A stretch of 64,000 bases of DNA, taken from positions 17,736-81,735 of IMG/VR virus record IMGVR_UViG_3300033146_003395. One strand, given 5' to 3'. Origin of the DNA: a virus. Both the position numbers and the translations under genes were made by a program. Shown here piece by piece: positions 2,035 to 62,984 of this stretch. The notes under the pieces are model-generated. The model had not been told where the DNA came from. It searched no databases and saw only the letters and a list, made by a program, of their open reading frames with translations. Every line of letters starts with the position of its first letter. The first letter of the stretch is position 1.

Positions 2035-2039
2035 TGTTT

Positions 2040-2047: not shown

Positions 2048-2067
2048 GTTTGTGTAATCCTTAGGGA

Positions 2068-2900: not shown

Positions 2901-2903
2901 TTT

Positions 2904-2911
2904 TATTTATA
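2904..2911 (-). promoter_or_regulatory. Late promoter of gp22
   Basis: Minus-strand TATAAATA within AAACTATAAATAAAACAG, the same 18-bp context as the gp23 late promoter, lying just after the stop of the preceding gene. Confidence 0.8.
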
Positions 2912-2977
2912 GTTTAAGAAATTCTTAACTTGAAAACAAATTAAGAATCTATAAACTATATTTTAACTATATTTAAC

Positions 2978-5223: not shown

Positions 5224-5247
5224 TTTATACCTTTTATATTAAGTTGA

Positions 5248-5966: not shown

Positions 5967-5992
5967 TGGTGTTTCCTTTTATTTTATTAATT

Positions 5993-6000
5993 TATTTATA
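5993..6000 (-). promoter_or_regulatory. Late promoter upstream of the gp67-like gene
   Basis: Minus-strand TATAAATA between the portal stop and the gp67-like start. It would give the core, protease and scaffold genes late transcription independent of the portal promoter. Confidence 0.7.
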
Positions 6001-6030
6001 AGATACGATATTATAAGTTAAAATTCTAAC

Positions 6031-14933: not shown

Positions 14934-14976
14934 GTCTGGGTTGTTGGGAATTATAAATAATGAAAAGGATAAAATA

Positions 14977-46639: not shown

Positions 46640-46714
46640 ACGGCTAAATTATAAGTGTAGATGAGCCGTGGAAGAGCATCTACACTTATAAAATCTCTTA
46701 TTATATTATTTATA
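46640..46714 (-). ncRNA. Interleaved-stem element E4 (degenerate) with late promoter
   Basis: TATAAATA at 46707-46714 on the minus strand overlaps the end of the first radical SAM gene. After it come 46649-46663 pairing with 46677-46691 (15 bp) and a shortened second stem, 46640-46645 with 46664-46669. The outer stem is mostly lost (AATAAGAG has no full partner). No minus-strand gene follows for 2 kb, so this copy seems orphaned. Confidence 0.55.
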
Positions 46715-47606
46715 TAATATAATCTAAATCTTTATCCTTACACATTTGTACAATGGATTTTTCACATAGACGGCAGGCTTCGTACTTCATACTTAATACT
46801 TCTTCCCAAGTCCAATCAGGGTCTATTTGTGCTTCTAACGTTAAGTAACAAGGCCATTCTTTTCCGTTGACATCAATTTGTAAACTGCCAGCATTATAAG
46901 ATTTACACTTTGCAATTTTACTTAAACCTTTACTGAACTTCAGTGTAGCTATTTTTTCTATGTTCAAGTACTGTTCAATTTTGTCTTGATAAGGCTTTAG
47001 TTTATTTAAGTTATTTTTATTTTTATAATTACTTGAGTCTTTTAATAAGAATGTTTCAGTCCAATAAACATTTGTAAAATCTTCTAACATTTTAGCCATT
47101 TCGGGGCTATCAAAATCTTTATCGTTGTAATCAAAACGAATCATCTGTACATAATCTATGGGGTTAGCAATTCTGAAAAATTTAGCATTATCTAATATCT
47201 TCTCTAATGATGTACCACTTCTATACGTTTCATGTAATTCTTGAGTACTTCCCGTAATTGTGAAATATACCCTGTCATTTTTATCTAAAAGATTACCTAA
47301 GGTGCTCCACCATAAATGAGAATGAGTACTACCATTTGTACAAATTTCTATATTAATTTTACGTGTTTTAATAAATTCAACTAACTCTAAAAAGTAATTA
47401 TATAATGTAGGTTCACTAATACTACCAACAAGTCTTATCCATTCTAAATCAGGATATGATTTTATTTGCTCTTTTAACTCATCAAAATCTCTATGAAAAT
47501 TATCTGGGTAGTGTTCATCAAATGTGTTATAATTTCTATAACATAATTGGCAGGCAGCATTACAAAAAGTACTTAACTCAAATTCTATATCTTTTACTTT
47601 GTACAT
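46710..47606 (-). CDS. Radical SAM enzyme 1 (last of seven-gene set)
   Basis: A 298-residue radical SAM protein; the CxxxCxxC cluster site is C15-C19-C22 (FCNAACQLC). GSISEPTLY replaces the usual GGEP motif. The motif FTITGSTQELHETYRSG is shared with three neighbours. C-terminal Cys (KCKSYNAG, WPCYL, CRLCEKS, MCKD) look like an auxiliary-cluster (SPASM/twitch) domain, typical of peptide- or protein-modifying enzymes. Nine bp after the previous gene; last of the operon. Confidence 0.85.
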   Translation of the reverse strand: MYKVKDIEFELSTFCNAACQLCYRNYNTFDEHYPDNFHRDFDELKEQIKSYPDLEWIRLVGSISEPTLYNYFLELVEFIKTRKINIEICTNGSTHSHLWWSTLGNLLDKNDRVYFTITGSTQELHETYRSGTSLEKILDNAKFFRIANPIDYVQMIRFDYNDKDFDSPEMAKMLEDFTNVYWTETFLLKDSSNYKNKNNLNKLKPYQDKIEQYLNIEKIATLKFSKGLSKIAKCKSYNAGSLQIDVNGKEWPCYLTLEAQIDPDWTWEEVLSMKYEACRLCEKSIVQMCKDKDLDYII

Positions 47607-47614
47607 ATTAAACC

Positions 47615-48424
47615 TTAATCATTATATCTATAAGCATTACAGGTAGCACAAATCCCACTAAAGATTTTATTATCTTGTAATGTCTTATAAAAATTCATTT
47701 TTTTACGTAGCTTATCTACACCATCAGTATAATGTCCCAGCGAAGTATCACCATTAATATCTTGCCAAGAACAAAATACCACTTCACCATCATAATTTAT
47801 TCCAACATCATCGTCCATCCATTTACAGTGGCCAGCTCTTTCAACTTTTGTAATAATATCTGAATTGCCTAAATCCCATTCAAAATCAACAACTTCAGGT
47901 ATATCAAAATTACCTGTTAGCTCGTTATCTATATATTTATTTGATGCATTTGTCCTATTATTTATTTCTAAATTTATATTGTTACACTTTTTTAAATAAT
48001 TAATAGTTTTCATAACATTATTATATTTATCTTTACCAGTTCTGGTTTGAAAATGTGTTTTATCATACCCATAAAAACTGATAGTAACAAGTGGGTTATT
48101 AATACTATTTACTAAGTCAAATATTCTTTCATTATAAAACTCACCAGATGTAAAAAATTGAATTTCTAAATTATCAAAAGTATTACAGTAGTCAACTATT
48201 TCTACAAAACCATTATATGGATATAAAAAACTGTCGCCTATTAATGAGCCTAATTCTATACTTTCTGCGCCCCACTCTACAGCAAAATCAATATATTTTT
48301 TAACAGTTTCTACTGGAACAATTATTTTATTTTTTTGATATTCATCACTATTTTGACAAAATGTGCATCTTAAATTACATATATTTATCATTGGTACTTG
48401 AAATTCGCTCTTATCTACATCCAT
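47615..48424 (-). CDS. Radical SAM enzyme 2
   Basis: A 269-residue protein with C16-C20-C23 (ICNLRCTFC). The GGE position reads LGSLIGDSF. The C-terminus has CKWMDDDVGINYDGEVVFCSW and a final CATCNAYR, consistent with an auxiliary cluster. Of a different subtype from the SEPT-motif neighbours. Overlaps the upstream gene by 10 bp. Confidence 0.85.
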   Translation of the reverse strand: MDVDKSEFQVPMINICNLRCTFCQNSDEYQKNKIIVPVETVKKYIDFAVEWGAESIELGSLIGDSFLYPYNGFVEIVDYCNTFDNLEIQFFTSGEFYNERIFDLVNSINNPLVTISFYGYDKTHFQTRTGKDKYNNVMKTINYLKKCNNINLEINNRTNASNKYIDNELTGNFDIPEVVDFEWDLGNSDIITKVERAGHCKWMDDDVGINYDGEVVFCSWQDINGDTSLGHYTDGVDKLRKKMNFYKTLQDNKIFSGICATCNAYRYND

Positions 48425-49272
48425 ACATTATCTCCATTTATTATATTTAATAGTTTCTGAGTATTAATATCACACTCTCTACAAAAATCATAATTACCAT
48501 TCTCTATATTTGTAAAATCTAAATTAAAAGTATCTTTTGTTTGCATTTTAAATAAATCACATGGACTCAAACTCCCATCACAATTTATTATTAAAAAATT
48601 ATCTAATTTTGCAGGGCATACTATATTTTTATCTTTATTTATTTTCAATATATTCAAATATTTCTTTCTTAAATTATCAACCATATTAAATTCATTATCT
48701 TTATTATAAACATACTCATTAAATTGCGCTGTATCATTAATAATAAACTCATTAAATTTATTATTATAAACAGATAAATCATCAAATTCATTATATTTAA
48801 ATCGTAAATAACTAACACAATTAATAGGGTTAATTTTTTCAAAAGCTAATATATTTCTAATAACAGTATCTAAGTTACTATTAACTCTATATTTTTCATG
48901 TAGCTCTTGGGTACTTCCACAAACTGTGAATGTAATACTATCATTTGAACTCATAATATTTGCTAATTTTTCCCACCATTTCTCATCATGTAAATCACCA
49001 TTGGTAAATATTTCTACAATAATATTAAGACTTTTAATAAATTCAATTAGTGGTAATATATCTTTAAAAGTTGTAGGTTCACTTATAGCACTTGATAAAG
49101 TAATTTTTTTAACGTTCTTAAATTTTAATATATCACTTTTAATCTCTGTTAATGAGCGAGAACTAATATTTTCAAATTCTATATTTTCTCGCAAGCATAA
49201 CGGGCATTTTAGATTACATGCTGTTGTTGTTTCTAATTCGATATGCTCGATATTTTCATACTTTGTTTGCAA
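48415..49272 (-). CDS. Radical SAM enzyme 3
   Basis: A 285-residue protein with C19-C23-C26 (ACNLKCPLC), AISEPTTF, and FTVCGSTQELHEKYRVNSNL near 117-136, almost identical to enzymes at 50179 and 51102. C-terminal Cys: CPAKL, LSPCDLF, CRECDINT, an auxiliary cluster. Overlaps the glycosyltransferase-like gene upstream by 17 bp. Confidence 0.85.
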   Translation of the reverse strand: MQTKYENIEHIELETTTACNLKCPLCLRENIEFENISSRSLTEIKSDILKFKNVKKITLSSAISEPTTFKDILPLIEFIKSLNIIVEIFTNGDLHDEKWWEKLANIMSSNDSITFTVCGSTQELHEKYRVNSNLDTVIRNILAFEKINPINCVSYLRFKYNEFDDLSVYNNKFNEFIINDTAQFNEYVYNKDNEFNMVDNLRKKYLNILKINKDKNIVCPAKLDNFLIINCDGSLSPCDLFKMQTKDTFNLDFTNIENGNYDFCRECDINTQKLLNIINGDNVWM

Positions 49273-50185
49273 TATTTTCCTTTATTTGTGAGTATTTTAA
49301 GTTTAGACCAGCCAGTGTCGCTTCGAGCCCAATATGTTTAATTAGTTTTTTCGCCACAATATCTAAATTTCTTAATGGGTATTTAACACTCTGGTGAAAA
49401 TCTTCATAATCATCGTAATGATAGATAGCTGTATTTTTATTACAATTATACTTTTCATTTAATTCATGATCATCTCCCTCATGAAAAGAAATTGAAGATT
49501 TAAAATCGGTAATATCAATAAATTGTTCGGGATAAGCGTGATATATTATACTTGCTGCTATTTCTTCGCACATTATTTCTAACTCTAGCTCTGGTTTGTT
49601 TACTTTCTCTGAAACTTCTAATAGTTTAAAAGTTACTTCTTTATATAATTTCCAAAACATATGATCTGTTTTTGCATATATAAACCAAGTATTAACAAAT
49701 TTAGTTAAGTGCTTTACTTCAATATCAAAACAATCCAGTATATCTTTTTTAAAATATTTATTGTAATATTCATCCCATAAAAAGACATTCTCGAATTGGT
49801 CAGTTTCTTTACTATCTAATATTGTTATAACACATCTATCTGTTTTACCCAATATTAGCTCGTCAAAATATATAACATCTAAATCTGTAAATAATGTATA
49901 TTCTGTATCTACCTTATCTATTATATAATCTAAAACTATGGGTACATTTGTATAATTAACAACCTTATTTGGTTGTGGGTTGTAAATATCCTTTATTATA
50001 TATTGTATCGCATTAATCTTAAAGTAATCTTGACATTCAGCATTAATATCATTTTTATTTGGTTGGACCATAATAATATTTTCAATCTTATTAAAACTTG
50101 AAAAAGAATCAATATATATTCTAGCATCTCTTTCAAATCTTCCATTTTTCCCTTCTATACAATGAACCATAGTAGTATTTAGCAT
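49256..50185 (-). CDS. Glycosyltransferase-like protein in the radical SAM operon
   Basis: A 309-residue protein with LFTDLDVIYF (D101, D103), a DxD sugar-nucleotide motif after strands, and a helical C-terminal part. It overlaps genes on both sides, so it belongs to the same transcript as the radical SAM enzymes. It may add sugar to the same target they modify. The GT call is by motif only. Confidence 0.55.
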   Translation of the reverse strand: MLNTTMVHCIEGKNGRFERDARIYIDSFSSFNKIENIIMVQPNKNDINAECQDYFKINAIQYIIKDIYNPQPNKVVNYTNVPIVLDYIIDKVDTEYTLFTDLDVIYFDELILGKTDRCVITILDSKETDQFENVFLWDEYYNKYFKKDILDCFDIEVKHLTKFVNTWFIYAKTDHMFWKLYKEVTFKLLEVSEKVNKPELELEIMCEEIAASIIYHAYPEQFIDITDFKSSISFHEGDDHELNEKYNCNKNTAIYHYDDYEDFHQSVKYPLRNLDIVAKKLIKHIGLEATLAGLNLKYSQIKENIANKV

Positions 50186-51069
50186 ATAAACTCCAAACCA
50201 AATTTTTCTATTTTATTTATTGTTTGTTTCTCACATGCAAAACAATCAGGGTAATTAAAGTCTATTATTTTTGTATAATCAAAAATATTGCCAGTAAAAG
50301 CTTCACCTGGATTATATTCAAAATGTGTATAACAAGCACTGATATTTCCATCTTGTGATATATAAATTTTTTTATACTCTAAACTTTTACATAGAAGAGT
50401 ACCAGTTTTTCTTCTATTTTTAATTAGCCATTTAATTGTTTTATCTCTAATTTCTTCCGGTTTAATATTTGAATCTGGTGTTTTAACTTTTGAATTTATA
50501 ATACGGTCGCCTTCACTATTAACAGTATAATGGTTACTAAAGTTTAATTTATTTACATTGTCTTCGTCATTTTTATTATATTCAAATTTAATAAACTGAC
50601 AATAATCATTATTTTTGTTGCTTTTTTTATAACTCATTGCGTTTTGTAAGACTGTTTCTAAGTTACTATTAACTCTATATTTTTCATGTAACTCTTGGGT
50701 ACTTCCACAAATAGTGAAATGAACAGCATCATCATTATCTAGTACTGACCCAAGCTCTTCCCAAAAAGCTGCATCTCTAGTGCTTCCATTTGTGAATATT
50801 TCCACCATCATACCTCTGGCCTTTAAATATTGTATATATTTGATAAAGTCAGGATGAAGTGTAGGTTCAGATACTTGTCCGGCAACATAAGCCCTTTTAA
50901 GATTTGGAAATGTATCAAGTTGCTTTATAATATTTTCCAACGGTCTAACATTCTTATGTACCATGTGCTGTGCATGAATATAATTACGGCTGCATAAAGG
51001 GCAACTAAGATTACAAGTCCCCGTTAAATCTAATTCAAACTCTTCATAAAAATCTTTACTTACTTGCAT
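50179..51069 (-). CDS. Radical SAM enzyme 4
   Basis: A 296-residue protein with C19-C23-C26 (TCNLSCPLC), GQVSEPTLHPDF and FTICGSTQELHEKYRVNSNL. C-terminal Cys: LLCKSLE, SACYTHF, CFACEKQT. Closest to enzymes 3 and 5. Overlaps the gene after it by 7 bp. Confidence 0.85.
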   Translation of the reverse strand: MQVSKDFYEEFELDLTGTCNLSCPLCSRNYIHAQHMVHKNVRPLENIIKQLDTFPNLKRAYVAGQVSEPTLHPDFIKYIQYLKARGMMVEIFTNGSTRDAAFWEELGSVLDNDDAVHFTICGSTQELHEKYRVNSNLETVLQNAMSYKKSNKNNDYCQFIKFEYNKNDEDNVNKLNFSNHYTVNSEGDRIINSKVKTPDSNIKPEEIRDKTIKWLIKNRRKTGTLLCKSLEYKKIYISQDGNISACYTHFEYNPGEAFTGNIFDYTKIIDFNYPDCFACEKQTINKIEKFGLEFIC

Positions 51070-51101
51070 TACAAATCTCTATTACTAAAAATAGTACAGG
51101 A

Positions 51102-51992
51102 TTATCTATCACTTTCAAACCTTAACTGCTCACCAGAATATTCATCTTCTGGCTCTGCAACTTTATATATTTTATTAGATCTTAATGTTTTGGCATTTAA
51201 CGAACTACATTCGTAACAATGAGCATCTCCATATAAATTAAATAGAATGCACGGTGATGTTTTCCCAGTAAAATCAACCAGTTGAAACTTATAATTTATT
51301 GCTGGACACGATATATTTTCAAAATCAGTCTTTATTATCTCGGATTTGTAAATATTATGAAGTTCATTTACTAAATGTATACCTTCTGGAACATCTGTTA
51401 AATTAAAGTGCTCTACCATAGGAAGGGTATTAAAAGATTCAAGATCATATTTTGTGAACTTATGATAGTTTTTTTCGTAATCTTCTTTATTATACTCAAA
51501 TAATATCCAAGTTAATTTAGCGCTAGATGAATATTTTTGTACTATTTCTAGTCTTCTAATAACAGTATCTAAGTTACTATTAACTCTATATTTTTCATGT
51601 AACTCTTGGGTACTTCCACAAATAGTAAAATAAATAGACCCTATGGCACCATTAAAAACACTACCTAATTTTTTATAATATAAATCATCGTGCGTACCAC
51701 CATTAATGAATAAAGATATATCTATTTTTCTACGTTTTAAATATATTATTAATTTAAAAAGATCGGGGTGAAGCGTTGGCTCGCTTATTGCACCAGCAAT
51801 AGATATAAATTTTAAATTTGGGTATGAATCAATTTGTTCTATTATGTCTTCTATATCTCTAAATATTGTATCAGTTTTAGTATAGTCTGGATTAATTTGT
51901 CTTATGCATAATGGGCACTTTAGGTTACAAGTACTAGTCAACCCAATCTCCAGTCTATCAATATCTGCATTATTTAAATCATTATATACCAT
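51102..51992 (-). CDS. Radical SAM enzyme 5
   Basis: A 296-residue protein with C22-C26-C29 (TCNLKCPLC), GAISEPTLHPDL and FTICGSTQELHEKYRVNSNL. C-terminal Cys: SCPAINY, TSPCILF, HCYECSS. A 32-bp gap separates it from enzyme 4, the largest gap in the operon. Overlaps enzyme 6 by 11 bp. Confidence 0.85.
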   Translation of the reverse strand: MVYNDLNNADIDRLEIGLTSTCNLKCPLCIRQINPDYTKTDTIFRDIEDIIEQIDSYPNLKFISIAGAISEPTLHPDLFKLIIYLKRRKIDISLFINGGTHDDLYYKKLGSVFNGAIGSIYFTICGSTQELHEKYRVNSNLDTVIRRLEIVQKYSSSAKLTWILFEYNKEDYEKNYHKFTKYDLESFNTLPMVEHFNLTDVPEGIHLVNELHNIYKSEIIKTDFENISCPAINYKFQLVDFTGKTSPCILFNLYGDAHCYECSSLNAKTLRSNKIYKVAEPEDEYSGEQLRFESDR

Positions 51993-52818
51993 GTCTATCC
52001 TTTATTTCTTTATATACTTTATAATTTTTAATTGTCCCAGTTTTATTTTCAAATATATCACAATTAGAGCAAGACTCATTATAAATATTTTTAGTTTGGT
52101 TTGTAAAAATCTCTAATCTTTTTTTACTAAAATATACATCCTCTAAAGAAGTCTTATAAATGTTACCTAATAGTAACTCTGTATCTACTGTTAATTCGCT
52201 TTCTCCGCACAGACAGTAAACCATATTTCCATTCATATTTAATCTTGGGATAAATTGTAAACTACAGACACCAGTGCGTGTCTTATTTTTTTCTCTAATA
52301 TTTTTTGTAAACTCTTCTTTATCAATTATGTCTACACCATTATAAAAGTCATAATTAATACCGCGATATGATATTTCAATTGGTAAGTTTATTTTCTTAG
52401 CGTATTCTAAATTATTTCTATATATATTCCAATCATTTTCCGTTTTTCGTGTTAATGTTATAAAATCCTCTAAACACCCATCACCATAATCGCTTATTCT
52501 TATATCCAACTTACCTTGATACTTTTCAGTTAGTTTTTTTAACTTGTCTTGCACAGCTTCATTACACTTACTAAAATTGGTATAAAAACTAACCGAAAAA
52601 TCAGGCAAGACATAATTTAATTTTTCAATAAATTCAGGATCGATAAAAACTTCACCATCTATAGGAGTTAAATCTAATTCATCAATACCTATTTTCTTAG
52701 CGTCATCAATAATTTTAAAAAATACATCATTAGAAAGAATCTTGTGCTTATTAACATATTGAGATCCGCAGAAGTAACAGTTATAATTACAAATATTTAT
52801 TATTTCTATTCCTAACAT
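51982..52818 (-). CDS. Radical SAM enzyme 6
   Basis: A 278-residue protein with C10-C14-C17 (ICNYNCYFC). The glycine-rich motif reads TPIDGEVFIDPEF. C-terminal Cys: VYCLCGES and SCSNCDIFEN. It has a different loop set from enzymes 3-5. Overlaps the kinase-like gene by 7 bp. Confidence 0.85.
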   Translation of the reverse strand: MLGIEIINICNYNCYFCGSQYVNKHKILSNDVFFKIIDDAKKIGIDELDLTPIDGEVFIDPEFIEKLNYVLPDFSVSFYTNFSKCNEAVQDKLKKLTEKYQGKLDIRISDYGDGCLEDFITLTRKTENDWNIYRNNLEYAKKINLPIEISYRGINYDFYNGVDIIDKEEFTKNIREKNKTRTGVCSLQFIPRLNMNGNMVYCLCGESELTVDTELLLGNIYKTSLEDVYFSKKRLEIFTNQTKNIYNESCSNCDIFENKTGTIKNYKVYKEIKDRHGI

Positions 52819-53438
52819 AACATCTCTAATGTGATTTCTTTTATTACTGCATTATCATTTTCCATTATAAAGATTTCTTGTTCCATAATTGACTCTGAAA
52901 AATCAGAATCAACAACATTTACTATTCTTAATAATGGCAAGTCAACTTCCTCATCATACTCATCAAAATAAATAAATTTACTTGGTTTACTAATTCGTAA
53001 AGAATCAATATCAAAAAAATAAATGATATTATTTTTAACTATTAAATTTTCATTATGTAAGTCTTGGAAAGAAATATCACTTTCCCAATCAGATATAATT
53101 TTTTTATAATCTAATAAATTTAACTCAGGGATATCCCGAGGTATATTACCATCTATAAATTCAAAAGTAAACCATTTTTCATCTTCTTCTAATAAATTTA
53201 TTGTATTGCTAATATTATTAATATTTTTAATAAATTTAAAAATCCGCATAGTATCTTCATGTGAATAGCATATTTTCTGTGTATAAAAATTATACAAGTA
53301 TTCCTTAAAAATATACTTTTTATTTTCAAATAGTATACTTCTTGGTGTTGTATCACCTAAAAATGTGACCTCGGTGGTTCCAAACTTTGTTTGAAGTTCT
53401 TTGCGATATTTATGATCTATTTCACTATTTAACAACAC
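52812..53438 (-). CDS. Kinase-fold protein (APH/lipopolysaccharide-kinase-like)
   Basis: A 208-residue protein with protein-kinase-like active-site residues: Lys45 in YIFKEY, the catalytic loop SFQDLHNENLIV (D126, N131) and the metal site FFDIDSL (D143). Such small kinases phosphorylate sugars, antibiotics, lipids or peptides. It is translated inside the radical SAM operon (14-bp and 7-bp overlaps), so it probably acts on the same substrate. Confidence 0.65.
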   Translation of the reverse strand: MLLNSEIDHKYRKELQTKFGTTEVTFLGDTTPRSILFENKKYIFKEYLYNFYTQKICYSHEDTMRIFKFIKNINNISNTINLLEEDEKWFTFEFIDGNIPRDIPELNLLDYKKIISDWESDISFQDLHNENLIVKNNIIYFFDIDSLRISKPSKFIYFDEYDEEVDLPLLRIVNVVDSDFSESIMEQEIFIMENDNAVIKEITLEMLC

Positions 53439-54444
53439 TTGTTTCCTTTCTGAACTCTATTATATTTTTAATGTGCTCGCCTTCTATTATTTTAATACCT
53501 GAATTATTATATTGTTTTTCAATACCATCACAGATAAGAAAAAATTTACATTTAGAGCATTCTCTTGGTTTACTATAAGTATTAACTCTATTGGTTTGTG
53601 CTTGCTCATAAGCATTCTCAATTGTATTTTTAATTGGAGCTTCAGCATCATAAGTTAACAAATTCCAATCACCTAAATCATAGATGTGTTGGAATGTTCC
53701 TACAACATACTTCTCATATCCTTTCATAAAACAATAAGGGATATAACGAACATTAACTTCTATATCGGTTTCTACTAAATAATCAATACAAACTTTTATA
53801 CCTTCACTTAATATGTCGTAACTAGATACTTTCATATCTTTAGCGTCACTCCAGTAATTTAGTGGCAACAAATTTAACTGTTTGGGGCTAAAACTTCTTA
53901 CTAAATTTGCGTATTGTAACATATCATTAACGTTATTTTCCGTTACTGTGCAATTAATTCTAACCTTAATCCCTAGTATATTACAATTCTCAATAGCTTG
54001 TATAATATGTTGAAAAGCTTTATTGTGCCCTACAATTTTGTCATGTGAATCTGCATCCCACCCGTGTAAGCTAAATAATACTTCATTTAAACCGTGCATT
54101 TGTGACATCTCGGCAAAAGCGAAATCTTTTAATTTACTTCCATTGCTTAAACAAGAAACACTCATAAATTTATCTCTACAATACTCAAGTATATCAAACC
54201 AATCGGGGTGAATTGTACTCTCACCACCACTTAAGTCAACTTCCTTCATACCAGATTTAAAAAGTATATTTGCCCTTGCTTTAATTTCTTCTAGGGATAA
54301 ACTGGGGTCATTTAAATTATTTTGATAATAGCAAAATCCACATTTGTAGTTACATTTTAATCCGGTATCTAGTTTACCTCTGGAATTAATTGGTAGCTGC
54401 ACGTGGGTTTGTATCTGTGGTTTACTTATTGTATTATAATTCAT
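53425..54444 (-). CDS. Radical SAM/SPASM enzyme 7 (first of operon)
   Basis: A 339-residue protein with C31-C35-C38 (KCNYKCGFC), a canonical GGES motif (VDLSGGESTIHPDW), SLHGWDADSHDKIVG, and a SPASM-like end CSKCKFFLICDGI. It leads the operon, with AGGATATTAAA before the ATG. Promoter: the late promoter at 54740, about 300 bp upstream, is the only clear candidate. Confidence 0.87.
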   Translation of the reverse strand: MNYNTISKPQIQTHVQLPINSRGKLDTGLKCNYKCGFCYYQNNLNDPSLSLEEIKARANILFKSGMKEVDLSGGESTIHPDWFDILEYCRDKFMSVSCLSNGSKLKDFAFAEMSQMHGLNEVLFSLHGWDADSHDKIVGHNKAFQHIIQAIENCNILGIKVRINCTVTENNVNDMLQYANLVRSFSPKQLNLLPLNYWSDAKDMKVSSYDILSEGIKVCIDYLVETDIEVNVRYIPYCFMKGYEKYVVGTFQHIYDLGDWNLLTYDAEAPIKNTIENAYEQAQTNRVNTYSKPRECSKCKFFLICDGIEKQYNNSGIKIIEGEHIKNIIEFRKETSVVK

Positions 54445-54750: not shown

Positions 54751-55647
54751 TCAAATTATTTCCTTTAATATATTAACTATTTCGTCATTTTGGGTGAGTT
54801 GAATACTTTGAAAATTATTTTCAATATCGTAACGTCTCCAAAATAACCCTTTATCTTCTAACCAATAATCAACATCATATACTACTTGTTTATTGAAGTA
54901 GTGACACTCTGCGATAAATCTTGGAGAGCAGTCAAATTTTCTTGGTACTGGTGTATAAATATAAGTGTTGAACTCTTCCATTAAGTTATTATACGGTAAT
55001 AACTTAAAAGTAATATTAGAGTAAGTCTCTAATGGAATTTCATTGACTAAACATAAAATATTATCACATGGTAAATTTTTGCTAAGCATTTTGAAGTAAT
55101 TGTCATCAATAGCTCTGCAATTTTTTGTAGCATATAATAATATGTTATCCTTAGGGTTTTTAGGTTTAGTCATTCTGCTGAATAACATTTTCTTTTTATA
55201 GTTAATACCATTTTTCAGTACTGAATCATATACTCTATCATCCTGTAAAATATAAACGTTATCTTTGTTATTATCTTGAATCTCTTTATTACCGCAAGCG
55301 AAATAAAATATATTATCAAATATTAGCGTAGTGTTACGAGTGTTAACTATTCCACCATCAGTAAAAATAATATTCTTACCCTTAAGCAGCTTAGGTCTAT
55401 TCTCAAATCTCGTATTAATTTTAATATCTTGTATCTCGACTTCATCAAAATCGTATTTAGACCGGATAGCTTTTTCAAATGTACTCCAGCTAATATCTTC
55501 ACATAATAAAATCTCAGTGTCATATTTGTTTTTCAAAATCATATAGTAATCGATAACTTCAAAAGTATGACCACAAATTCCATGATTATTTGTTGACCAA
55601 GAATATGTTAAAGTTAATTGTCTATTAGTTTGCACTATTTTACTCAA
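54751..55647 (-). CDS. Hypothetical protein, possible GT-B-type glycosyltransferase
   Basis: A 298-residue protein. The C-terminal stretch CSPRFIAECHYFNKQVVYD-x10-WRRYDI corresponds to NNRLIVECFHYDKSIVVID-x7-LRFSDI in the next protein, so the two are distant paralogs. A Pro/Arg-Ile-x-Glu-Cys helix near the C-terminus resembles the donor-binding end of GT-B enzymes, but this is weak. Overlaps the upstream gene by 8 bp. Confidence 0.6.
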   Translation of the reverse strand: MSKIVQTNRQLTLTYSWSTNNHGICGHTFEVIDYYMILKNKYDTEILLCEDISWSTFEKAIRSKYDFDEVEIQDIKINTRFENRPKLLKGKNIIFTDGGIVNTRNTTLIFDNIFYFACGNKEIQDNNKDNVYILQDDRVYDSVLKNGINYKKKMLFSRMTKPKNPKDNILLYATKNCRAIDDNYFKMLSKNLPCDNILCLVNEIPLETYSNITFKLLPYNNLMEEFNTYIYTPVPRKFDCSPRFIAECHYFNKQVVYDVDYWLEDKGLFWRRYDIENNFQSIQLTQNDEIVNILKEII

Positions 55648-56434
55648 GCATATCCTTAATTATTGGTGTATCTATTTGTAGTTGATACTGACTAATACCA
55701 TTTTTCATTATGTCACTGAATCTTAGATAAACTGAATCTTCTTCATCTGAATTATCAATAACTACTATACTCTTATCATAATGGAAACACTCCACTATAA
55801 GTCTATTATTAGTATCTCTAAATCCATTGTGATAATAATATAATGTATCGAATTGCTCAAATAAATTATCTAAAGGTTTATCAACATTTTTAGTTAATAT
55901 ATTGCTTTCTTGAATATCTATTTTATCGATTATTTTATTATAGTTAATACTAGGAGAAGTTATATAAGCAGTATCTGTATAAACCTCATCAATCTCTTTG
56001 TAAATATTAAAATTGAATCTTAATTTATCTTCAATATCATATTCTTGATAATCGTAAGTGCCATAATATGTTATCTTCTTATTATTGCTGTATACTTTTT
56101 CATAATACGTATTTGCATATACCAAAACATCAGATTTTAAGAATCTAAACATCTTCTCGAAGCTATTAGTATCTAAGAATAAAGATTTTGTACTTTCTAT
56201 CTCATAGAGTTCACTGATAGTATCAACAATTTTAATATTATCTAAAATCTGGTGGTCGAAATTATACTTATTTTTGAAAGTATCTTTAACCATAACCAGG
56301 TCTTCTGGACTGATATTTTTAATATAGAACGTGGTATTCTTATGTCTATTTAAATATTCAAAATACTCAAAGCAATAGAATAACGTCCCATTAATTTTTC
56401 TACCAGGTAGAAAATAATAAAAAATATTAATCAC
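55640..56434 (-). CDS. Hypothetical protein, paralog of the previous gene
   Basis: A 264-residue protein with the same overall plan: N-terminal Rossmann-like strands (INIFYYFLPGRKINGT) and C-terminal RLIVECFHYDKSIVVID. The start adjoins the upstream stop. A role in glycan synthesis is a guess from the neighbourhood. Confidence 0.6.
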   Translation of the reverse strand: MINIFYYFLPGRKINGTLFYCFEYFEYLNRHKNTTFYIKNISPEDLVMVKDTFKNKYNFDHQILDNIKIVDTISELYEIESTKSLFLDTNSFEKMFRFLKSDVLVYANTYYEKVYSNNKKITYYGTYDYQEYDIEDKLRFNFNIYKEIDEVYTDTAYITSPSINYNKIIDKIDIQESNILTKNVDKPLDNLFEQFDTLYYYHNGFRDTNNRLIVECFHYDKSIVVIDNSDEEDSVYLRFSDIMKNGISQYQLQIDTPIIKDMLE

Positions 56435-56976
56435 TAGATGCTGCTTGAAATCTTATCTAATTCTTCAACATCATCTTCTGTTAGTTTATAAACAGACTGT
56501 AATACTCTATTAAAATCTTTCTTAGCACTTTTAACTACTTGCAATTCATCTTTAGCTTCAAGAAAAGCTTCAAGTAGATCAATTAAATTTTCATCACCAA
56601 TCTCTAATATTTCGAGATATTTTTCTTCTCTATTATTATTGGTTATGAATATTCCATGAGAACTTAATTCATTATTAATATCAATATAATTAATATATGT
56701 TATCATATCAACTTTCTGTACTAGACTTTCTACCTTAAGCTTGGCTTCTTTAATAATTGAAACTCTTTTGATGTCTTTAACTGGTATATTATAATACTTT
56801 TCATCTTTGAATAAGATGTTTCCTTCGCTATCTATTATAATTGTCTTATCTGAAATATTTGCAGCGATAAAATTATTTATTTCAACCTCATCTATAACTA
56901 TAGTATTTTCAGACTCCATATCTACAATTTTATCTATGATTATATGTGCATCTTCGTTTATTATTTGATATATCAT
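56434..56976 (-). CDS. Hypothetical acidic protein
   Basis: A 180-residue protein rich in Ile, Glu, Asp and Lys, with beta strands first and a helical C-terminus (LLEAFLEAKDELQVVKSAKKDF). First gene of the three-gene operon; AAAGGAAATTA before the ATG. A -10-like TGTTATTAT lies about 20 bp upstream. Function unknown. Confidence 0.65.
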   Translation of the reverse strand: MIYQIINEDAHIIIDKIVDMESENTIVIDEVEINNFIAANISDKTIIIDSEGNILFKDEKYYNIPVKDIKRVSIIKEAKLKVESLVQKVDMITYINYIDINNELSSHGIFITNNNREEKYLEILEIGDENLIDLLEAFLEAKDELQVVKSAKKDFNRVLQSVYKLTEDDVEELDKISSSI

Positions 56977-57084: not shown

Positions 57085-57119
<35 letters not shown>

Positions 57120-57127
57120 AATTACAG

Positions 57128-58408
57128 TTACAAGTAATTACAGTTACAAGTACAAGAATAATTACAGTTACAAGTACAGTTATTACAATTACAAGCACAA
57201 AAGTTACAATTACAAAAACACGACCCTGCAGATGAATTTATTTCAGCAATTAATGCATTTATTTGTGCTGCTGTTATAATAGTTCCAATTGGAAGTTCAC
57301 TAAAATTACCACCTGGTTGTCCAGCATTTGTTTCTGTCCAAGTTACTATAGCTTTACCTGAACCACCATGGCCGCCTCTTGCCATAGATACATTTCCACC
57401 AGTAGCGCCTCCACCGCCGCCACCACCAATATTACCAGGTAATCCATTGACATGAACAGCATCTCCAGCACCAGCACCACCGCTACCGAGGCCGCCACCG
57501 CCTCCACCGCCGCCACCCCAAACAAAGGCCACAGTATGTCCCCTTACACCCCCAGGATTCACGCCGCCACATCCAGCATTTGAAGGAACACCATCAGAGT
57601 ATATTATAACATTATCCCAAGAGCCATTTCCACCGTTACCACCACCGTTTGCACCAATTCCAGGCTGACTTGGCCATAACCCATTACCATTAATCGCGCC
57701 AGCACCACCACTAACAGAAAAGCTACCTCCAAATGATGATGTACCACCTGAGCCGGCTTGTGCACCACTTATATTAGTTCCAATTCCGCCTTTGCCAATA
57801 ATGACAGTGATCCTTTGATCTGGTTGTACGTCAATAGTTCTGGTTGAAGCACCAGCACCACCACCCCCGGCACCACTTTGCCAGTTTCCACCAGTATTAT
57901 ACCATTGAGAACCACCGGCACCACCACCACCACTTAGACAAACAGTTACTGAATTGGTATTTGGTGGAACAGTAAAAGTCGATGTCGCTGTAAAAATCTG
58001 AGAACCTGGTGATGTACTAGGTGGAACAGAAGCAGCACCATTTAAAGCTACAACTAAAGAATTATAATGAGCAGCAGTTATTAAAGTTCCAGTTGCTGGC
58101 CTTATACTTGGCAATATTGGGCCCGTGGATAATCCCACTCGTTGTCTCTCCGCAATAATATCATTTTCTATAGAAATCCATAAAGGGTCGTCTATAAGAA
58201 TTCCAGTTGTTACTTCGTTAGAACTCACATTACCACTGTCATCTCCAGCAGTTCCATAAGGGTCTTTATCCCATTTACAACCAGTTTCTAAATATGAATC
58301 ACATATTAGTATTGAAGATGTTGATGGCGTCTGTGGTAAATTTGTAGCACTACATTTGCCATTTAAATTTGCATGGCCTTGACAATAGTTTATGCAGTAT
58401 CCTGACAT
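57128..58408 (-). CDS. Gly-rich fibre/adhesin-like protein with CxCNCN tail; candidate radical SAM substrate
   Basis: A 426-residue protein in five parts. (1) Cys-rich start (C5, C9, C19, C36, C44). (2) TGTLITAAHYNSLVVALN near 106-123. (3) A long glycine-rich region, about 160-360, with many GGGG blocks, like the polyglycine domains of phage tail-fibre adhesins. (4) IGTIITAAQINALIAEIN near 375-393, a repeat of part 2. (5) A 30-residue tail, 397-426, made of four CxCNCN repeats with 12 Cys. No transmembrane segment. It is the last gene of a compact operon with three radical SAM enzymes, so it is the best candidate for their substrate. It might be a virion adhesin or a secreted modified protein. 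Confidence 0.75.
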   Translation of the reverse strand: MSGYCINYCQGHANLNGKCSATNLPQTPSTSSILICDSYLETGCKWDKDPYGTAGDDSGNVSSNEVTTGILIDDPLWISIENDIIAERQRVGLSTGPILPSIRPATGTLITAAHYNSLVVALNGAASVPPSTSPGSQIFTATSTFTVPPNTNSVTVCLSGGGGAGGSQWYNTGGNWQSGAGGGGAGASTRTIDVQPDQRITVIIGKGGIGTNISGAQAGSGGTSSFGGSFSVSGGAGAINGNGLWPSQPGIGANGGGNGGNGSWDNVIIYSDGVPSNAGCGGVNPGGVRGHTVAFVWGGGGGGGGGLGSGGAGAGDAVHVNGLPGNIGGGGGGGATGGNVSMARGGHGGSGKAIVTWTETNAGQPGGNFSELPIGTIITAAQINALIAEINSSAGSCFCNCNFCACNCNNCTCNCNYSCTCNCNYL

Positions 58409-58409
58409 A

Positions 58410-58817
58410 TTAGTCCTTTAGGTATTTATTAATATTTTTTTTAATATTATCTAATAAATCTGTATTTATCTTATTTATATTATTATCTTTTATGTTTTCG
58501 GTGTTCTGCTCATTAATTATATTAGTTATAATATCTTTTGCCATTTTTTCTACTTCTTCAGATATATTAATATCAAACATTTGTTCAAAAATAATTATTT
58601 TTGATTCGGCATCGGGTTCGCTAACATTTGAATGATTATATACTAATTTTTGGGCTTTTATAAAACCTAATAATGCATCCATATAAAAATCTTTAATATC
58701 TGGAGAAATCTCTTCATACTGAGTACCAACTTTAATTAATTCTTTAGTTATTTCCTGAAATCTTTGTCCTCTTTCTTCTGGTGTTGCCTCTATCTCTAAG
58801 TCTTGCTCTTTTTTCAT
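58410..58817 (-). CDS. Small helical protein upstream of the Gly/Cys-rich protein
   Basis: A 135-residue, highly charged helical protein (EERGQRFQEITKELIKVG; long Asn/Lys/Ile-rich end). One bp separates it from the next gene, and it overlaps the radical SAM gene in front by 4 bp. It might be a chaperone or substrate-presenting partner, but no known recognition domain is visible. Confidence 0.65.
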   Translation of the reverse strand: MKKEQDLEIEATPEERGQRFQEITKELIKVGTQYEEISPDIKDFYMDALLGFIKAQKLVYNHSNVSEPDAESKIIIFEQMFDINISEEVEKMAKDIITNIINEQNTENIKDNNINKINTDLLDNIKKNINKYLKD

Positions 58818-59629
58818 ACTTTTTCCTTTTTTTTAAAATCACTAAATTCACCTGATGAAACTAATGTTCTACTTATTTGTTTAGTTGAAGTATACAAAGA
58901 CAAATTATCTCTATGTATTTCACACCCATTACAAGTATCACATACCAGTTCACAAATTGGCACTTTAATTTTTTGACTGTTCCACATATCAATTATTTTT
59001 GCTTTTCCGTGTTCAAAAATATTAATATCTATTTGCTCAGTAACAGCTCCTAATATTATTCTTGATGGGTTAAAAGAGTCTATTAAATTAGTAATATCAT
59101 CTACAAATACTCCAATATTATGTGTATGAACCGTATATCTAATTCTATACGGCATATTTATCGCTTTAAATAATGATAATACATACAAAATATCTGTTGT
59201 AGATTCTTTATTGCTATGAAATATTCTTTCTTGGTTACCTTTTCCATCGAAACTAATATCTAACGTTATTTTCCCTGCTTTATAATGTACATTATTTATA
59301 TAATCCGACACAAATTTATCATCTTTAAATTTTAACCCATTAGATATTATATTAAATTGTACATTCTCTTTTTTTGACACGGCATAATCCATAAAGTATT
59401 TTAGTTTATCCCATTCCAATAATGGTTCTCCACCAAATAAGATGAAAAACGTTTGTTCATTTATAACCTCTCTTCCTATTACTTCGTCTGCTGCCTCCCT
59501 TAATTTTTCTAATGAGATAGTTGACTTCTCAACATCTTTTAAGTTCTCATAACAATAAGTGCAGTTTAATTGACAATCACTAGTAAAATACACTATATTA
59601 GTTTTGTTATCGCTTATATTTTTAAACAT
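58814..59629 (-). CDS. Radical SAM enzyme C
   Basis: A 271-residue protein with C19-C23-C26 (DCQLNCTYC), GGEPLLEWDK (about 66-75) and the internal strand pattern of sulfatase-maturase-like enzymes (NIISNGLKF, LDISFDGKGNQERIFH). The end has CELVCDTCNGCEIH, a Cys group that may hold another cluster, but no full SPASM domain. Starts 1 bp before the 65-residue gene ends. Confidence 0.87.
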   Translation of the reverse strand: MFKNISDNKTNIVYFTSDCQLNCTYCYENLKDVEKSTISLEKLREAADEVIGREVINEQTFFILFGGEPLLEWDKLKYFMDYAVSKKENVQFNIISNGLKFKDDKFVSDYINNVHYKAGKITLDISFDGKGNQERIFHSNKESTTDILYVLSLFKAINMPYRIRYTVHTHNIGVFVDDITNLIDSFNPSRIILGAVTEQIDINIFEHGKAKIIDMWNSQKIKVPICELVCDTCNGCEIHRDNLSLYTSTKQISRTLVSSGEFSDFKKKEKV

Positions 59630-59827
59630 TTATTGGCTATCAGTATCAGCTGCTAATATTACCGATATGTCTTCTAAAAATACTTCAAAGTCTATCTTAT
59701 AATCAAACAAGTGCCCAGGATTATTATACATTACATATTTCTTATCTACTAATGATTTCTTGGCATCATCTAGTTTTTCCTCTATTTCTTTAATACTTAA
59801 TTTATTTTCTTTTGTATCACAACTCAT
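59630..59827 (-). CDS. Small accessory protein between radical SAM genes
   Basis: A 65-residue helical acidic protein (CDTKENKLSIKEIEEKLDDAKKSL...). Overlaps the upstream gene by 11 bp and abuts the next. Its size would suit a peptide-binding accessory protein or an extra small substrate; neither is proven. Confidence 0.6.
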   Translation of the reverse strand: MSCDTKENKLSIKEIEEKLDDAKKSLVDKKYVMYNNPGHLFDYKIDFEVFLEDISVILAADTDSQ

Positions 59828-60557
59828 TAGAATCCTTTTCTATTTCTTGAATAATTTTATTTATTTTTTCAGGGTCATATTTAAAAAATTTCTGTACAAT
59901 ATTAATTAAAATTAATATCTGTTTTTTATCTTTAATCGTATTTCTTTGTTCACATAATCTTTTCTTTATAAGAGTCTCTAATTTTTCTTTTTCAATATCA
60001 CTTACAGTATCTAATACATAAGCGATTAATTTATCGAAGAGATCAAAATCGAATTGTTCCTGTTCTAATAAAAATATTATAGTAAATCTATTTTTCATTT
60101 TAATTAAAAATTCAGATATATCATTTTTTAAAGTTATATTATCAGGATCAATACTATCAGAATTAGTATAATAATTATATAATATAGCAGATTTAGATGT
60201 TTTTGCACAATCATTATTTAACAATAATCTTATTGACTCTTTGGTCTTGTCTAGTTCTATATCATTTAATAAATGTAGAAATTTAGTATTAATATTTAGA
60301 TGAAGATCATCCCAAGCACCTTTATAAATATATCTATCAAATCTTCTCTTACCAAATTTATTCATATATATTCGAGAACATTCGAATGTATAACAATTTA
60401 GATCAAGAATTTTCTCTATACTAGGCTTCTTCTCAAAAATTTTTAAATATCTTATATTCTCATATAATGAATGGGGTTTAGAATATTTTCTTTTATACTT
60501 CTTTCTAGAACATTTTATATTTTTCTTTTCAAACTTCCCTTGAATTTCCCAAATCAT
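59817..60557 (-). CDS. Hypothetical protein in the radical SAM operon
   Basis: A 246-residue, Lys/Ile-rich helical protein with a basic N-terminus (KKNIKCSRKKYKRKYSK). No motif recognised. Translation overlaps both neighbours, so it belongs to the operon; it may be a scaffold or regulator of the enzymes. Confidence 0.65.
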   Translation of the reverse strand: MIWEIQGKFEKKNIKCSRKKYKRKYSKPHSLYENIRYLKIFEKKPSIEKILDLNCYTFECSRIYMNKFGKRRFDRYIYKGAWDDLHLNINTKFLHLLNDIELDKTKESIRLLLNNDCAKTSKSAILYNYYTNSDSIDPDNITLKNDISEFLIKMKNRFTIIFLLEQEQFDFDLFDKLIAYVLDTVSDIEKEKLETLIKKRLCEQRNTIKDKKQILILINIVQKFFKYDPEKINKIIQEIEKDSNEL

Positions 60558-61657
60558 CCCATATTCCTTAATAAATCATGCACTAAATTTTGAAAAATAG
60601 GATTATCTTTTAACTCATGTACAACTCTTTGAGTCTCTTCTTGTATCATATGAAATAATTCACAAACACTATCAACAGGTTTATTATCATTTCTAATTTG
60701 AGAATAAGTACAACCCGCATTACAAACAGAATATAAATCACAGCTCTGACATTTGTCAAAATTTGCCGGTTTAAACTTCTCTTGCCAATACGCAAAATTA
60801 TGATTTTCATCCATCTCCATAACTTTCTTATCGCTAAATCTAGCGCAAGGATAAAACTTACCATCAGTTGTCATAACAGCACCATTAACACCTGCGAAAC
60901 AACCAAAATCTCTCTTCTGATATGTTAGTCCAAAGATATTATCTAAAATACATAAGCTAAAGAAACCAACATTTAGTTTTATGCCTTCTTTTATATAATG
61001 AATATATCTATCTCCGAGACTTTTAATATCTGTTCTGAAATTTCTTAAGTCTTGTGCACTCCAAATATCATCTCTAACAATACTATAATCTGGTGACATT
61101 ATTCCATTATTTACGAAAAAATCCAGGTTAGCTGTCATCTCTGAACTATTTCCTGGCCATACCATAACTTTACAGCCAGATGTAAGTTGTTTAATTAGTG
61201 GCATTTTATCTTGAAATAATTCCATTGTATTGGTGTAACTTGTACCATCTTCTTTAGGATTAATAAATTGAGTTGCTAAAGGTCTTGACTCGTTGCTTCC
61301 CATACCATCGAAACTCCAAGATACACCAACCTCATTATCTTTAATCCACTGAAGTTTTTCTTCATCTATTAATGTCATATTAGAAATAATAACTAAGTTT
61401 AATTTCAATGGTAATTTTTTAAGGATACCTGTAGCATACTTTATTAAATCAAAATTCATCATTGGTTCACCGCCGAAGAATGATAAGTTAAGATTTTTAG
61501 TGCCCGATGCTTTCATCATATCAATTAGTTTAGGTAACATTTCATTAAATACTTCTTTGGTCATATAAGTATCTGTAAATGTTTCATAACAATAAGTACA
61601 TCTCATAGAGCATTGATCCGCGACTTTTAATTCTAGTGTAAATGTATCAAAACCCAT
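60554..61657 (-). CDS. Radical SAM/SPASM enzyme B (sulfatase-maturase-like)
   Basis: A 367-residue enzyme with C16-C20-C23 (QCSMRCTYC), FFGGEPMMNFD, LVIISNMTLID, VSWSFDGMGSNESRP, and a SPASM domain CFAGVNGAVMTTDGKFYPCARF ... CQSCDLYSVCNAGC ... C. This order and length match anaerobic sulfatase-maturating enzymes and peptide maturases that carry two auxiliary [4Fe-4S] clusters. It would modify Cys/Ser or other residues of a protein or peptide. Confidence 0.92.
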   Translation of the reverse strand: MGFDTFTLELKVADQCSMRCTYCYETFTDTYMTKEVFNEMLPKLIDMMKASGTKNLNLSFFGGEPMMNFDLIKYATGILKKLPLKLNLVIISNMTLIDEEKLQWIKDNEVGVSWSFDGMGSNESRPLATQFINPKEDGTSYTNTMELFQDKMPLIKQLTSGCKVMVWPGNSSEMTANLDFFVNNGIMSPDYSIVRDDIWSAQDLRNFRTDIKSLGDRYIHYIKEGIKLNVGFFSLCILDNIFGLTYQKRDFGCFAGVNGAVMTTDGKFYPCARFSDKKVMEMDENHNFAYWQEKFKPANFDKCQSCDLYSVCNAGCTYSQIRNDNKPVDSVCELFHMIQEETQRVVHELKDNPIFQNLVHDLLRNMG

Positions 61658-61875
61658 TAATAAACTCTCAATAGTTGAATATTTTCTACACCTGTACAGA
61701 TGGTGTCCTCAATATTATTCTGGTGAACTATAAATGTAACAGTTCCATAAGGTTCTGCAAAATTGTTATTTAAATTACTATTAATAAATGTACCAAAATA
61801 GTGCTTCTCATTATAAGTGAAACCAACCTCTTTACTATCTTTAATTAAGTTTTCTATTAAAGTTCTAGTTATCAT
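61657..61875 (-). CDS. Small accessory protein between radical SAM genes
   Basis: A 72-residue protein with alternating beta strands (FTYNEKHYFGTFI, GTVTFIVH). It shares its first and last base with its neighbours. Beta-rich and small, so a peptide-recognition role is conceivable, but it lacks the known wHTH recognition-element pattern. Confidence 0.6.
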   Translation of the reverse strand: MITRTLIENLIKDSKEVGFTYNEKHYFGTFINSNLNNNFAEPYGTVTFIVHQNNIEDTICTGVENIQLLRVY

Positions 61876-62984
61876 TATTTTCCTTTGCTTTGCATTGCAT
61901 ATCTAATTGTCTTATTATATTTATCCATAAATTTAAATAAACTACAAGTCTGATTACTTTGATAATCAGTCCATTTTTCTTCGTATGTTTCTTTTGTTGA
62001 ACTGAAAAAATTAGATGCCTCACACTTCATACAAAAATTTACATCACAAGTTTGGCATTCAGTTGGTTTATATTCATATAATGGTTTGAATTTTTCTACA
62101 CCTGCTAAAAAATCTTCAGTAAAATTATCAATAGTACCAATATTATGCTCTTTACTTTCACGATATAAAAATCCGTGGCAAGGCTTCATTGAGCCATCTA
62201 AATCAATTGCGGTCATATTTACACCTACTGAGCACATCGCTTTATGGTGTGAAAACCAAGTAAATATATCTGGATTTAAATCGTTAGCATAAATGTAACT
62301 CGCTATTTTTTCCAGTTGTTCTCCAAGAATTTCAGAATCTTTTTGAAGTTCTTCTGTAGTTCTATTACTCCACATATCTGGCGTAGGTCCATAAAATCCT
62401 TGTTTTTTAAATAAGTCTAAAAAGCTATCAAATAAATGCGGAAACCCATCATTAGATATGACAGATTTTAATGATGTTTTAATTCCAATTTCTTTTAACG
62501 TATTGAAACCTTCTATTGTTTGTTTAGATGTTCCAGCACCGGATTTATCAACTCTAATATTATTACTTAAATATTCTCCATCATAAGATACTTGAATTTC
62601 TAAACGATTTCCTAATATTTTATGTAGCTCAATTAATTCAGATTTATATTTTGTGATAAATCCACCATGAGTATAAAAGAAAAATGAAAATGCTTCATCA
62701 TCTTTATATGCTTGTAAAACCGCATTACAGAAATTCCAGTTTAAGAAAGGTTCGCCGCCCCAGAAATTAATTTTTTTAGTCTTTGAACTATCAGTATTAA
62801 GTTTTTCTATCAGTGTTTCTACAGATACTTCTGTATTTTTCATATAAAATGTACTTAAATTACACCCTTGTTTTTCAAGAGCTGCATCATTTTCTAAACA
62901 ATATGTACATGCCAGGTTACAAGAACTTGTAACGTTTAAATCTATATTAATATTATCTTGTATATTCATTTCGCATAATGCCAT
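61875..62984 (-). CDS. Radical SAM/SPASM enzyme A (first gene of operon)
   Basis: A 369-residue enzyme with C22-C26-C29 (SCNLACTYC), NFWGGEPFLNWNF, a conserved IQVSYDGEYLSNNIRVD, and a SPASM-type C-terminus with CSVGVNMTAIDLDGSMKPCHGF, CQTCDVNFCMKC and a final C. Similar in plan to enzyme B at 60554. Translation start supported by AAAAGGAAAAGT. It leads the operon behind the promoter at 63001. Confidence 0.92.
   Translation of the reverse strand: MALCEMNIQDNINIDLNVTSSCNLACTYCLENDAALEKQGCNLSTFYMKNTEVSVETLIEKLNTDSSKTKKINFWGGEPFLNWNFCNAVLQAYKDDEAFSFFFYTHGGFITKYKSELIELHKILGNRLEIQVSYDGEYLSNNIRVDKSGAGTSKQTIEGFNTLKEIGIKTSLKSVISNDGFPHLFDSFLDLFKKQGFYGPTPDMWSNRTTEELQKDSEILGEQLEKIASYIYANDLNPDIFTWFSHHKAMCSVGVNMTAIDLDGSMKPCHGFLYRESKEHNIGTIDNFTEDFLAGVEKFKPLYEYKPTECQTCDVNFCMKCEASNFFSSTKETYEEKWTDYQSNQTCSLFKFMDKYNKTIRYAMQSKGK

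Follow-up and report, generated by a model that had tools for sequence, protein, structure and literature searches.

CteB (PDB 5wgg/5why, TIGR03974) forms thioethers on a Cys-rich peptide, and QhpD, a radical SAM (rSAM)/SPASM enzyme of quinohemoprotein amine dehydrogenase maturation, links Cys to Asp or Glu in a structural protein subunit rather than in a secreted peptide. PapB, the rSAM/SPASM maturase of the freyrasin-type PapB/PapA system, acts on repeated, loosely spaced Cys and Asp/Glu motifs and joins Cys to the β carbon of Asp with 0–6 residues between them (CX0-6D), the links being nested or in-line (PMC9413430). In the Campylobacter phages CP220 and CPt10, 11 and 12 rSAM genes were counted, alongside an amidinotransferase and a protein of 534 aa whose gene holds a 21-bp repeat (CPT_0180/gp140); the enzymes were read as metabolic and the repeat protein was left unconnected (Timms 2010, PMC2853527). 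For rSAM genes of IBB_35, roles in DNA protection or enzyme activation were suggested (PMC3322345). No report tying phage rSAM genes to fibre maturation was found in the open-access literature. Here we describe, in a 64,000-nucleotide window (the whole stretch analysed, positions 17736–81735 of the 81,735-base IMG/VR record IMGVR_UViG_3300033146_003395), an operon in which three rSAM enzymes (A, B and C) precede a Gly-rich fibre-type protein ending in Cys repeats. The whole evidence base is sequence, and IMG/VR records are fragments; on this footing we consider it likely that the operon is a cassette that matures a phage fibre tip, the rSAM enzymes modifying its cysteines.

The locus shares with PapB/PapA an rSAM/SPASM maturase and a repeated Cys-containing motif, but the putative substrate, instead of a small leader peptide, is the C-terminus of a phage fibre protein of 140–530 aa, with mostly Asn, three different enzymes are present rather than one, and their scores lie far under the PapB cut-off. 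Of the relatives with a solved structure, CteB is closest to A and B in sequence, although A–C are devoid of an N-terminal recognition domain and their target would be other than a SCIFF peptide. QhpD ranks high in the match lists for A and B, far below its cut-off, and the substrate here would be a tandem repeat. Orthologues of A–D (D being a further rSAM enzyme encoded downstream) were found in CP220 and CPt10 (Firehammervirus), with the genes scattered there and in a single operon here.

The operon and its cysteine-repeat fibre protein

All eight overlapping or abutting genes of the preliminary description are present on the minus strand (Table 1). Products A, B, C and D exceed the Pfam PF04055 gathering score of 29.5 bits, used as the cut-off for rSAM genes, and the Cys residues of their CxxxCxxC motif are conserved in alignments. 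The three rSAM enzymes first described were therefore retained, but as part of a larger set, the record holding ten such genes (A–J). Their SPASM type was accepted for A and B and withdrawn for C. The seven-Cys SPASM pattern, CX9-15GX4C-CX2CX5CX3C-C, is matched exactly by B (C253...G266x4C271, C303xxC306x5C312x3C316 and C332, invariant in the alignment rows covering them) and by A with CX2CX4CX2C (C251-G264-C269, C310xxC313, C318xxC321 and C347, conserved together with CxxxCxxC among 14 aligned homologues). In C the full pattern is absent and there is only the four-Cys auxiliary motif C226x3C230xxC233xxC236, invariant in 10 homologues. The Pfam SPASM model gave B 15.2 bits, under its cut-off of 21.5.

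Among NCBIfam models, PapB (NF047865) matched all three enzymes best, with 86.7, 130.4 and 66.1 bits for A, B and C, respectively, against a cut-off of 340, followed by models of the SCIFF maturase, QhpD (TIGR03906; 59 bits for A and 87 for B against a cut-off of 453) and CXXX-repeat maturases. The best PDB match of the A and B profiles was 5wgg (5e-31 and 2e-31), which we take to be the SCIFF maturase CteB. Since the curated cut-offs were missed, none of the three is filed in those families; by sequence they resemble thioether-forming peptide maturases (PapB, CteB, QhpD), at scores below those cut-offs.

The 426-aa Gly-rich protein was confirmed to end in four CxCNCN units with 12 Cys (SCFCNCNFCACNCNNCTCNCNYSCTCNCNYL). 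At the DNA level, the CxCNCN pattern has four occurrences in the window, all in the fibre gene, and none in 100 dinucleotide-preserving shuffles; the four units did not arise by chance. A fibre nature, as first proposed, is supported by matches of the protein to Gly_rich_2 and to phrog_863 (tail fiber assembly, 4e-17), by Peptidase_S74 domains in relatives, and by tail genes beside CP220 gp140 and beside the enzyme–Cys protein pair of a prophage described below. In addition, phrog_26958 matches the last 56 residues (370–425), and this profile spans 534 positions, as many as CP220 gp140 has residues. The fibre stop codon is directly followed by a (CTAA)n tetranucleotide run (57086–57125), giving stops in every frame, and then by a hairpin (AAATAACACTTTGGTGTTATTT).

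A survey of 342 units in 51 distinct proteins elsewhere found Thr at module position 2 in 66% of units, N/D/Q at position 4 in 98% and N/D at position 6 in 95%. Spacers between units are mostly Y, F, YA or YS, and 7- and 8-residue spacings are mixed. In the Cys codons of adjacent units 162 synonymous changes were counted, and just 6 units were broken out of 286 expected, so the repeat pattern is maintained at the protein level. Cys-module proteins among the relatives range from 125 to 534 aa, and in several of them the Peptidase_S74 (endosialidase chaperone) domain begins immediately after the module and ends the fibre. The S74 domain is cut off after trimerisation, and a module directly N-terminal to it would therefore come to lie at the tip of the mature fibre; display on the virion, with a role in adsorption, is probable. 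We know of no described S74 fibre with an rSAM-linked Cys array. At two further loci (L368:11800-12474 and L393:11826-12488) a Cys array precedes a Hint/intein-like domain that ends in SHN and replaces S74 (weak Pfam match, below cut-off).

Enzymes and cysteine repeats in other loci

Co-occurrence was assessed in two directions. A DNA pattern for CxCNCNxCxCNCN retrieved 46 loci from IMG/VR, with the pattern in frame in 45, mostly near the C-terminus of a 140–380 aa protein. rSAM genes over the cut-off were present in 42 of the 46 records (median 8, maximum 16), compared with 8 of 42 control records of at least 20 kb picked by an S74 tail-fibre motif (median 0; one single repeat unit in the whole control set). 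Fisher's exact test gave p of about 2e-12, uncorrected for relatedness; eight of the 46 loci are nearly identical, the p value is consequently too small, and the argument rests on independent contexts instead.

In the reverse direction, profile searches starting from B and A yielded 76 and 80 viral loci. A Cys-dense gene (at least eight Cys within 40 residues) was found in 64/76 of the B loci and 64/80 of the A loci, as opposed to 1/80 control loci (1/870 control genes). Several of the misses were contig ends, and one locus, L258, was a clear exception with intact neighbours. In this contig, near-identical to two intact ones, an out-of-frame deletion (L258:12674-12889) removes the fibre Cys module, either naturally or as an assembly artefact. 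Among distant A relatives without CxCNCN, the next gene usually bears another array, e.g. DCICNSDCACNNVCACHNDCGCNYSDERLK, and after de-replication a Cys-rich protein was present in the locus for 62 of 67 A-family enzymes. Repeat type, with class boundaries set by regular expressions of our own definition, is clustered along the A tree (16 changes, whereas shuffling gave a mean of 30.4 and none of 200 shuffles was as low).

Gene order is conserved as A (~370 aa), B (~370 aa), the small protein s1 (65–105 aa), C (~290 aa), the helical protein p130 (~130 aa) and the Cys fibre, and this synteny holds across distant phages; the fibre is followed by another operon, which contains two uncharacterised genes, D and more of the rSAM genes. 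Iterated hidden Markov model searches gave 90 ORF matches (23 distinct) for the s1 family and 76 (18 distinct) for p130. AlphaFold2 (AF2) models, of low confidence for s1 (two helices, no winged helix) and with a mean predicted local distance difference test score of 78.5 for p130 (all helix), gave no functional hint; p130 is a candidate chaperone or adaptor.

The association also holds where the genes lie apart. The same 15 Firehammervirus records hold A, B, C and the Cys-repeat protein as unlinked genes, which in CP220 lie at 164.8, 16.4 and 84.0 kb, respectively, with the (CTC[DN]CNY)n protein at 160.9 kb; the latter, gp140, is a 534-aa tail-region protein with CTCDCNY repeats. The CP220 orthologues show 28% identity for A, 36.6% for B and 29% for C, the latter two measured to relatives of the window's enzymes. 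Fletchervirus NCTC12673 has neither A nor the repeat. The mention of rSAM genes in Campylobacter T4-like phages in the preliminary description was right (Timms 2010), and the same set of enzymes and tail is present there.

A Clostridium rectalis prophage (L125) carries, consecutively in its tail module, genes for a tail-endopeptidase protein, one rSAM enzyme and a 142-aa Cys protein with three repeats. Distant enzymes adjoin proteins ending in CECECTCTCTCTCTC. Two unannotated ORFs of 130–133 aa (233784–234176 and 234186–234587 of the record), composed largely of CSGx repeats, lie a few genes away from two rSAM genes in the cultured Erwinia jumbo phage pEa_SNUABM_29; over these two Cys-Gly-Ser repeat ORFs only opposite-strand ORFs are annotated (L423:5076-5879, MW812339.1). 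At another locus, a 364-aa ORF with 81 cysteines (L404:11201-12295) adjoins a distant A-family rSAM gene. On the other hand, a control record with ten other rSAM genes (a weak, partial match to the A profile and no full-length A homologue) had no strict repeat unit. From these independent contexts it follows that the link is with the A family and not with rSAM genes in general, and among the ten rSAM genes of the window's record A, B and C alone clearly follow the Cys tail.

The check named in the preliminary description, for genomes with the enzymes and no Cys protein, accordingly gave co-occurrence nearly always in both directions, even with unlinked genes. This supports its proposal of the Cys tail as the likely substrate of the adjacent enzymes, and A, B and C very probably act on the module; taken as a whole, that earlier interpretation is partly supported.

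tblastn with the fibre and blastn with the operon against public phages returned no matches, in part because simple repeats were masked, and DNA patterns took their place. Locus searches with the single sequences of the fibre or of B were likewise without matches, and profile searches succeeded. Most of the pattern matches in bacterial genomes were CDCDCDD proteins (gut Clostridia, zinc-ribbon-like ends) or Actinobacterial ones, almost all without a nearby rSAM gene, and these were set aside. The human-faecal 'Bacteriophage sp.' matches to A resemble ordinary SCIFF maturases of bacteria and were left out of the counts.

Proposed chemistry and competing explanations

We propose that A and B (rSAM/SPASM) and C (one auxiliary cluster) would act on the CxC[N/D]C[N/D] array within the infected cell, either ahead of tail assembly or in the course of it, with s1 and p130 as putative helpers. 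The most probable reaction is that of their nearest characterised relatives: hydrogen abstraction from Asn/Asp (or Thr) followed by attack of a neighbouring Cys sulphur would give a thioether bridge, with a loss of 2 H each, and the several enzymes could each take a different Cys of the unit. The product would be a covalently stapled, redox-proof tip contacting the receptor; once S74 is cleaved off in relatives, the modified array would form the distal end. The conserved Asn/Asp beside Cys fits PapB-like chemistry, and Cys–Asx thioethers are therefore favoured over other products, with acceptance of Asn putative; we give this specific chemistry an even chance.

Several observations weigh against a thioether-stapled fibre tip. 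None of A, B and C reaches the 340 bits of a PapB-type ranthipeptide maturase. A leader, recognition element or protease of ribosomally synthesised and post-translationally modified peptides (RiPPs) was not found, and for the RiPP recognition element in particular Pfam scans of s1 and p130 were negative and their AF2 models all-helical, that of s1 at low confidence. In place of the short, protease-cut leader–core precursor typical of a RiPP cluster there are the longer Cys-module proteins, part of which have an autocleaving S74 domain instead. The window's own fibre protein lacks S74, and its tip position is hence argued by analogy. With three Cys to two Asx per unit, a one-to-one Cys–Asx scheme leaves some Cys unused, and the N/D preference could instead serve metal binding or folding. 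A few A-family loci (L364, L408 and L409) have no Cys-dense gene in reach. Finally, many of the records are related T4-like phages, and the counts are not independent.

The foremost competitor, though an unlikely one, is that the enzymes modify the Cys tip by other radical chemistry, i.e. epimerisation of every other residue to give a D/L helix, C–C or C–O crosslinks, or Cys oxidation. The alternating Cys-x-Cys arrangement, including pure (CT)n beside distant rSAM homologues, suits residue-alternating reactions, position 2 is mainly Thr, and the profiles also matched, more weakly, the epimerase YydG and cyclophane maturases. However, PapB is the best NCBIfam match of all three enzymes, and for A and B the CteB-type 5wgg beats YydG by many orders of magnitude.

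Considerably less probable is a metal-binding or disulphide-locked tip, with the rSAM enzymes acting on a glycan, nucleotide or host molecule and merely sharing a host-recognition island with the fibre. The T4 long tail fibre has an iron-binding HxH needle, and CxC is a metal-binding motif. The neighbourhood contains genes of glycan type (epimerase, DegT aminotransferase), ten rSAM genes exceed the need of one tail, and pelagimyophage host-recognition regions likewise contain glycosyltransferases and rSAM genes (PMC7029224). Against this, A, B and C follow the Cys protein even when unlinked, repeat type tracks the A tree, and in the L125 prophage A adjoins the Cys protein although the locus lacks B, C and the glycan genes. 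Spacings of 7 and 8 residues are mixed and put an unbroken needle of inward-pointing Cys out of register, for which reason this arrangement was itself judged unlikely.

That the rSAM genes are auxiliary metabolic genes boosting host metabolism at low oxygen, the published interpretation for CP220/CPt10 (PMC2853527), is very improbable for A–C: several accessory rSAM genes do accompany a 41%-identical homologue of the CP220 amidinotransferase, but the fibre gene stands in the operon, gene order is conserved, A, B and C are tightly paired with the Cys module, and their nearest relatives are peptide maturases. Shared ancestry of one phage lineage, to which the many related T4-like loci and the eight nearly identical ones would point, is the least probable account and is disfavoured by the unrelated contexts (the L125 siphoprophage, the unlinked genes of Firehammervirus, the L313, L316 and L407 types, and pEa_SNUABM_29).

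Covalent maturation of the fibre tip thus remains the preferred reading, and the balance tips, if less firmly, towards a widespread and so far unrecognised class of receptor-contact proteins, namely Cys-repeat tips matured by phage rSAM enzymes in T4-like phages, jumbo phages and siphoprophages. The repeat types (CxCNCN, CxCx3, (CT)n and CSG-type) would each have their own enzyme branch, and the tip would be exposed by S74-type, sometimes apparently Hint-type, self-cleavage. If true, this would be the first virion protein maturation through radical SAM chemistry and would give a function to phage rSAM clusters that have been puzzling or "metabolic" in listings since 2010; oxygen-sensitive peptide crosslinking would extend from small secreted peptides to virus structural proteins. 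The predictions are testable in phages already grown in the laboratory, and the loci would constitute a large natural collection of enzymes paired with their repeat substrates, of use in peptide stapling.

Accessory genes and the surrounding record

Table 1. Coordinates of the operon, its Cys module and the downstream genes in the window
Feature	Position	Strand	Evidence or remark
Enzyme A, rSAM/SPASM, 369 aa	61875-62984	-	PF04055 50.6 bits
72-aa ORF, lineage-specific	61657-61875	-	homologue absent from related loci
Enzyme B, rSAM/SPASM, 367 aa, best conserved of the set	60554-61657	-	PF04055 46.0 bits
246-aa ORF, lineage-specific insertion	59817-60557	-	homologue absent from related loci
s1, small conserved helper (putative), 65 aa, between B and C	59630-59827	-	homologues in the same place in many loci
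Enzyme C, rSAM, 271 aa, single four-Cys auxiliary motif	58814-59629	-	PF04055 35.9 bits
p130, helical, 135 aa, immediately 5' of the fibre gene	58410-58817	-	homologues in the same place
Gly-rich fibre-type protein, 426 aa, putative substrate	57128-58408	-	Gly_rich_2 46.3 bits
Cys module, 12 Cys, CFCNCN F CACNCN N CTCNCN YS CTCNCN	57137-57220	-	fibre residues 397-424
180-, 264- and 298-aa genes downstream of the fibre	54751-56976	-	order kept in related loci
Enzyme D, rSAM, 339 aa, usual member of the next operon	53425-54444	-	PF04055 70.2 bits; phrog_27238 3.5e-81
Accessory rSAM genes E-J (span 46710-52818)	51982-52818, 51102-51992, 50179-51069, 48415-49272, 47615-48424, 46710-47606	-	
309-aa gene interspersed among E-J	within 46710-52818	-	

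The idea that the 72- and 246-aa ORFs play a role was rejected for lack of conservation, homologous loci having no relatives of either. The 264- and 298-aa products have the look of glycosyltransferases, by eye alone, and their PHROG matches are only of unknown function.

Seven rSAM genes (D–J) sit in the operon after the fibre, at 46710–54444. D is MoaA/NirJ-like, with orthologues at 42–59% identity in many related records and 45% in CP220. TIGR04317 (W_rSAM_matur) is the best model for F, G, H and J, with all four far below the cut-off of this tungsten-oxidoreductase maturase model; E is weakly like it, and the best model for I is spiroSPASM. The motif CGSTQELHEKYRVNSNL is common to F, G and H, with a variant in J. 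E–J may act on a substrate other than the Cys tail, and several of the accessory rSAM genes, which lie near the amidinotransferase homologue, may have a metabolic role.

Homologues of gp23, gp22, gp21 and gp20 at 455–7587 (PHROG matches phrog_138, 237, 207 and 213) identify the record by sequence as that of a T4-like phage. The amidinotransferase-like part, with 41% identity to the CP220 amidinotransferase, belongs to a 421-aa ORF (43388–44653) in which the first ~65 residues resemble, by eye, a NUMOD/homing-endonuclease remnant fused to it. The adjacent DegT-type aminotransferase (42766–43386) is just 206 aa long and apparently truncated. ORFs with the look of GIY-YIG-type homing endonucleases, again by eye, are dispersed over the record at 7662–8315, 14941–15642 and 41020–41835.

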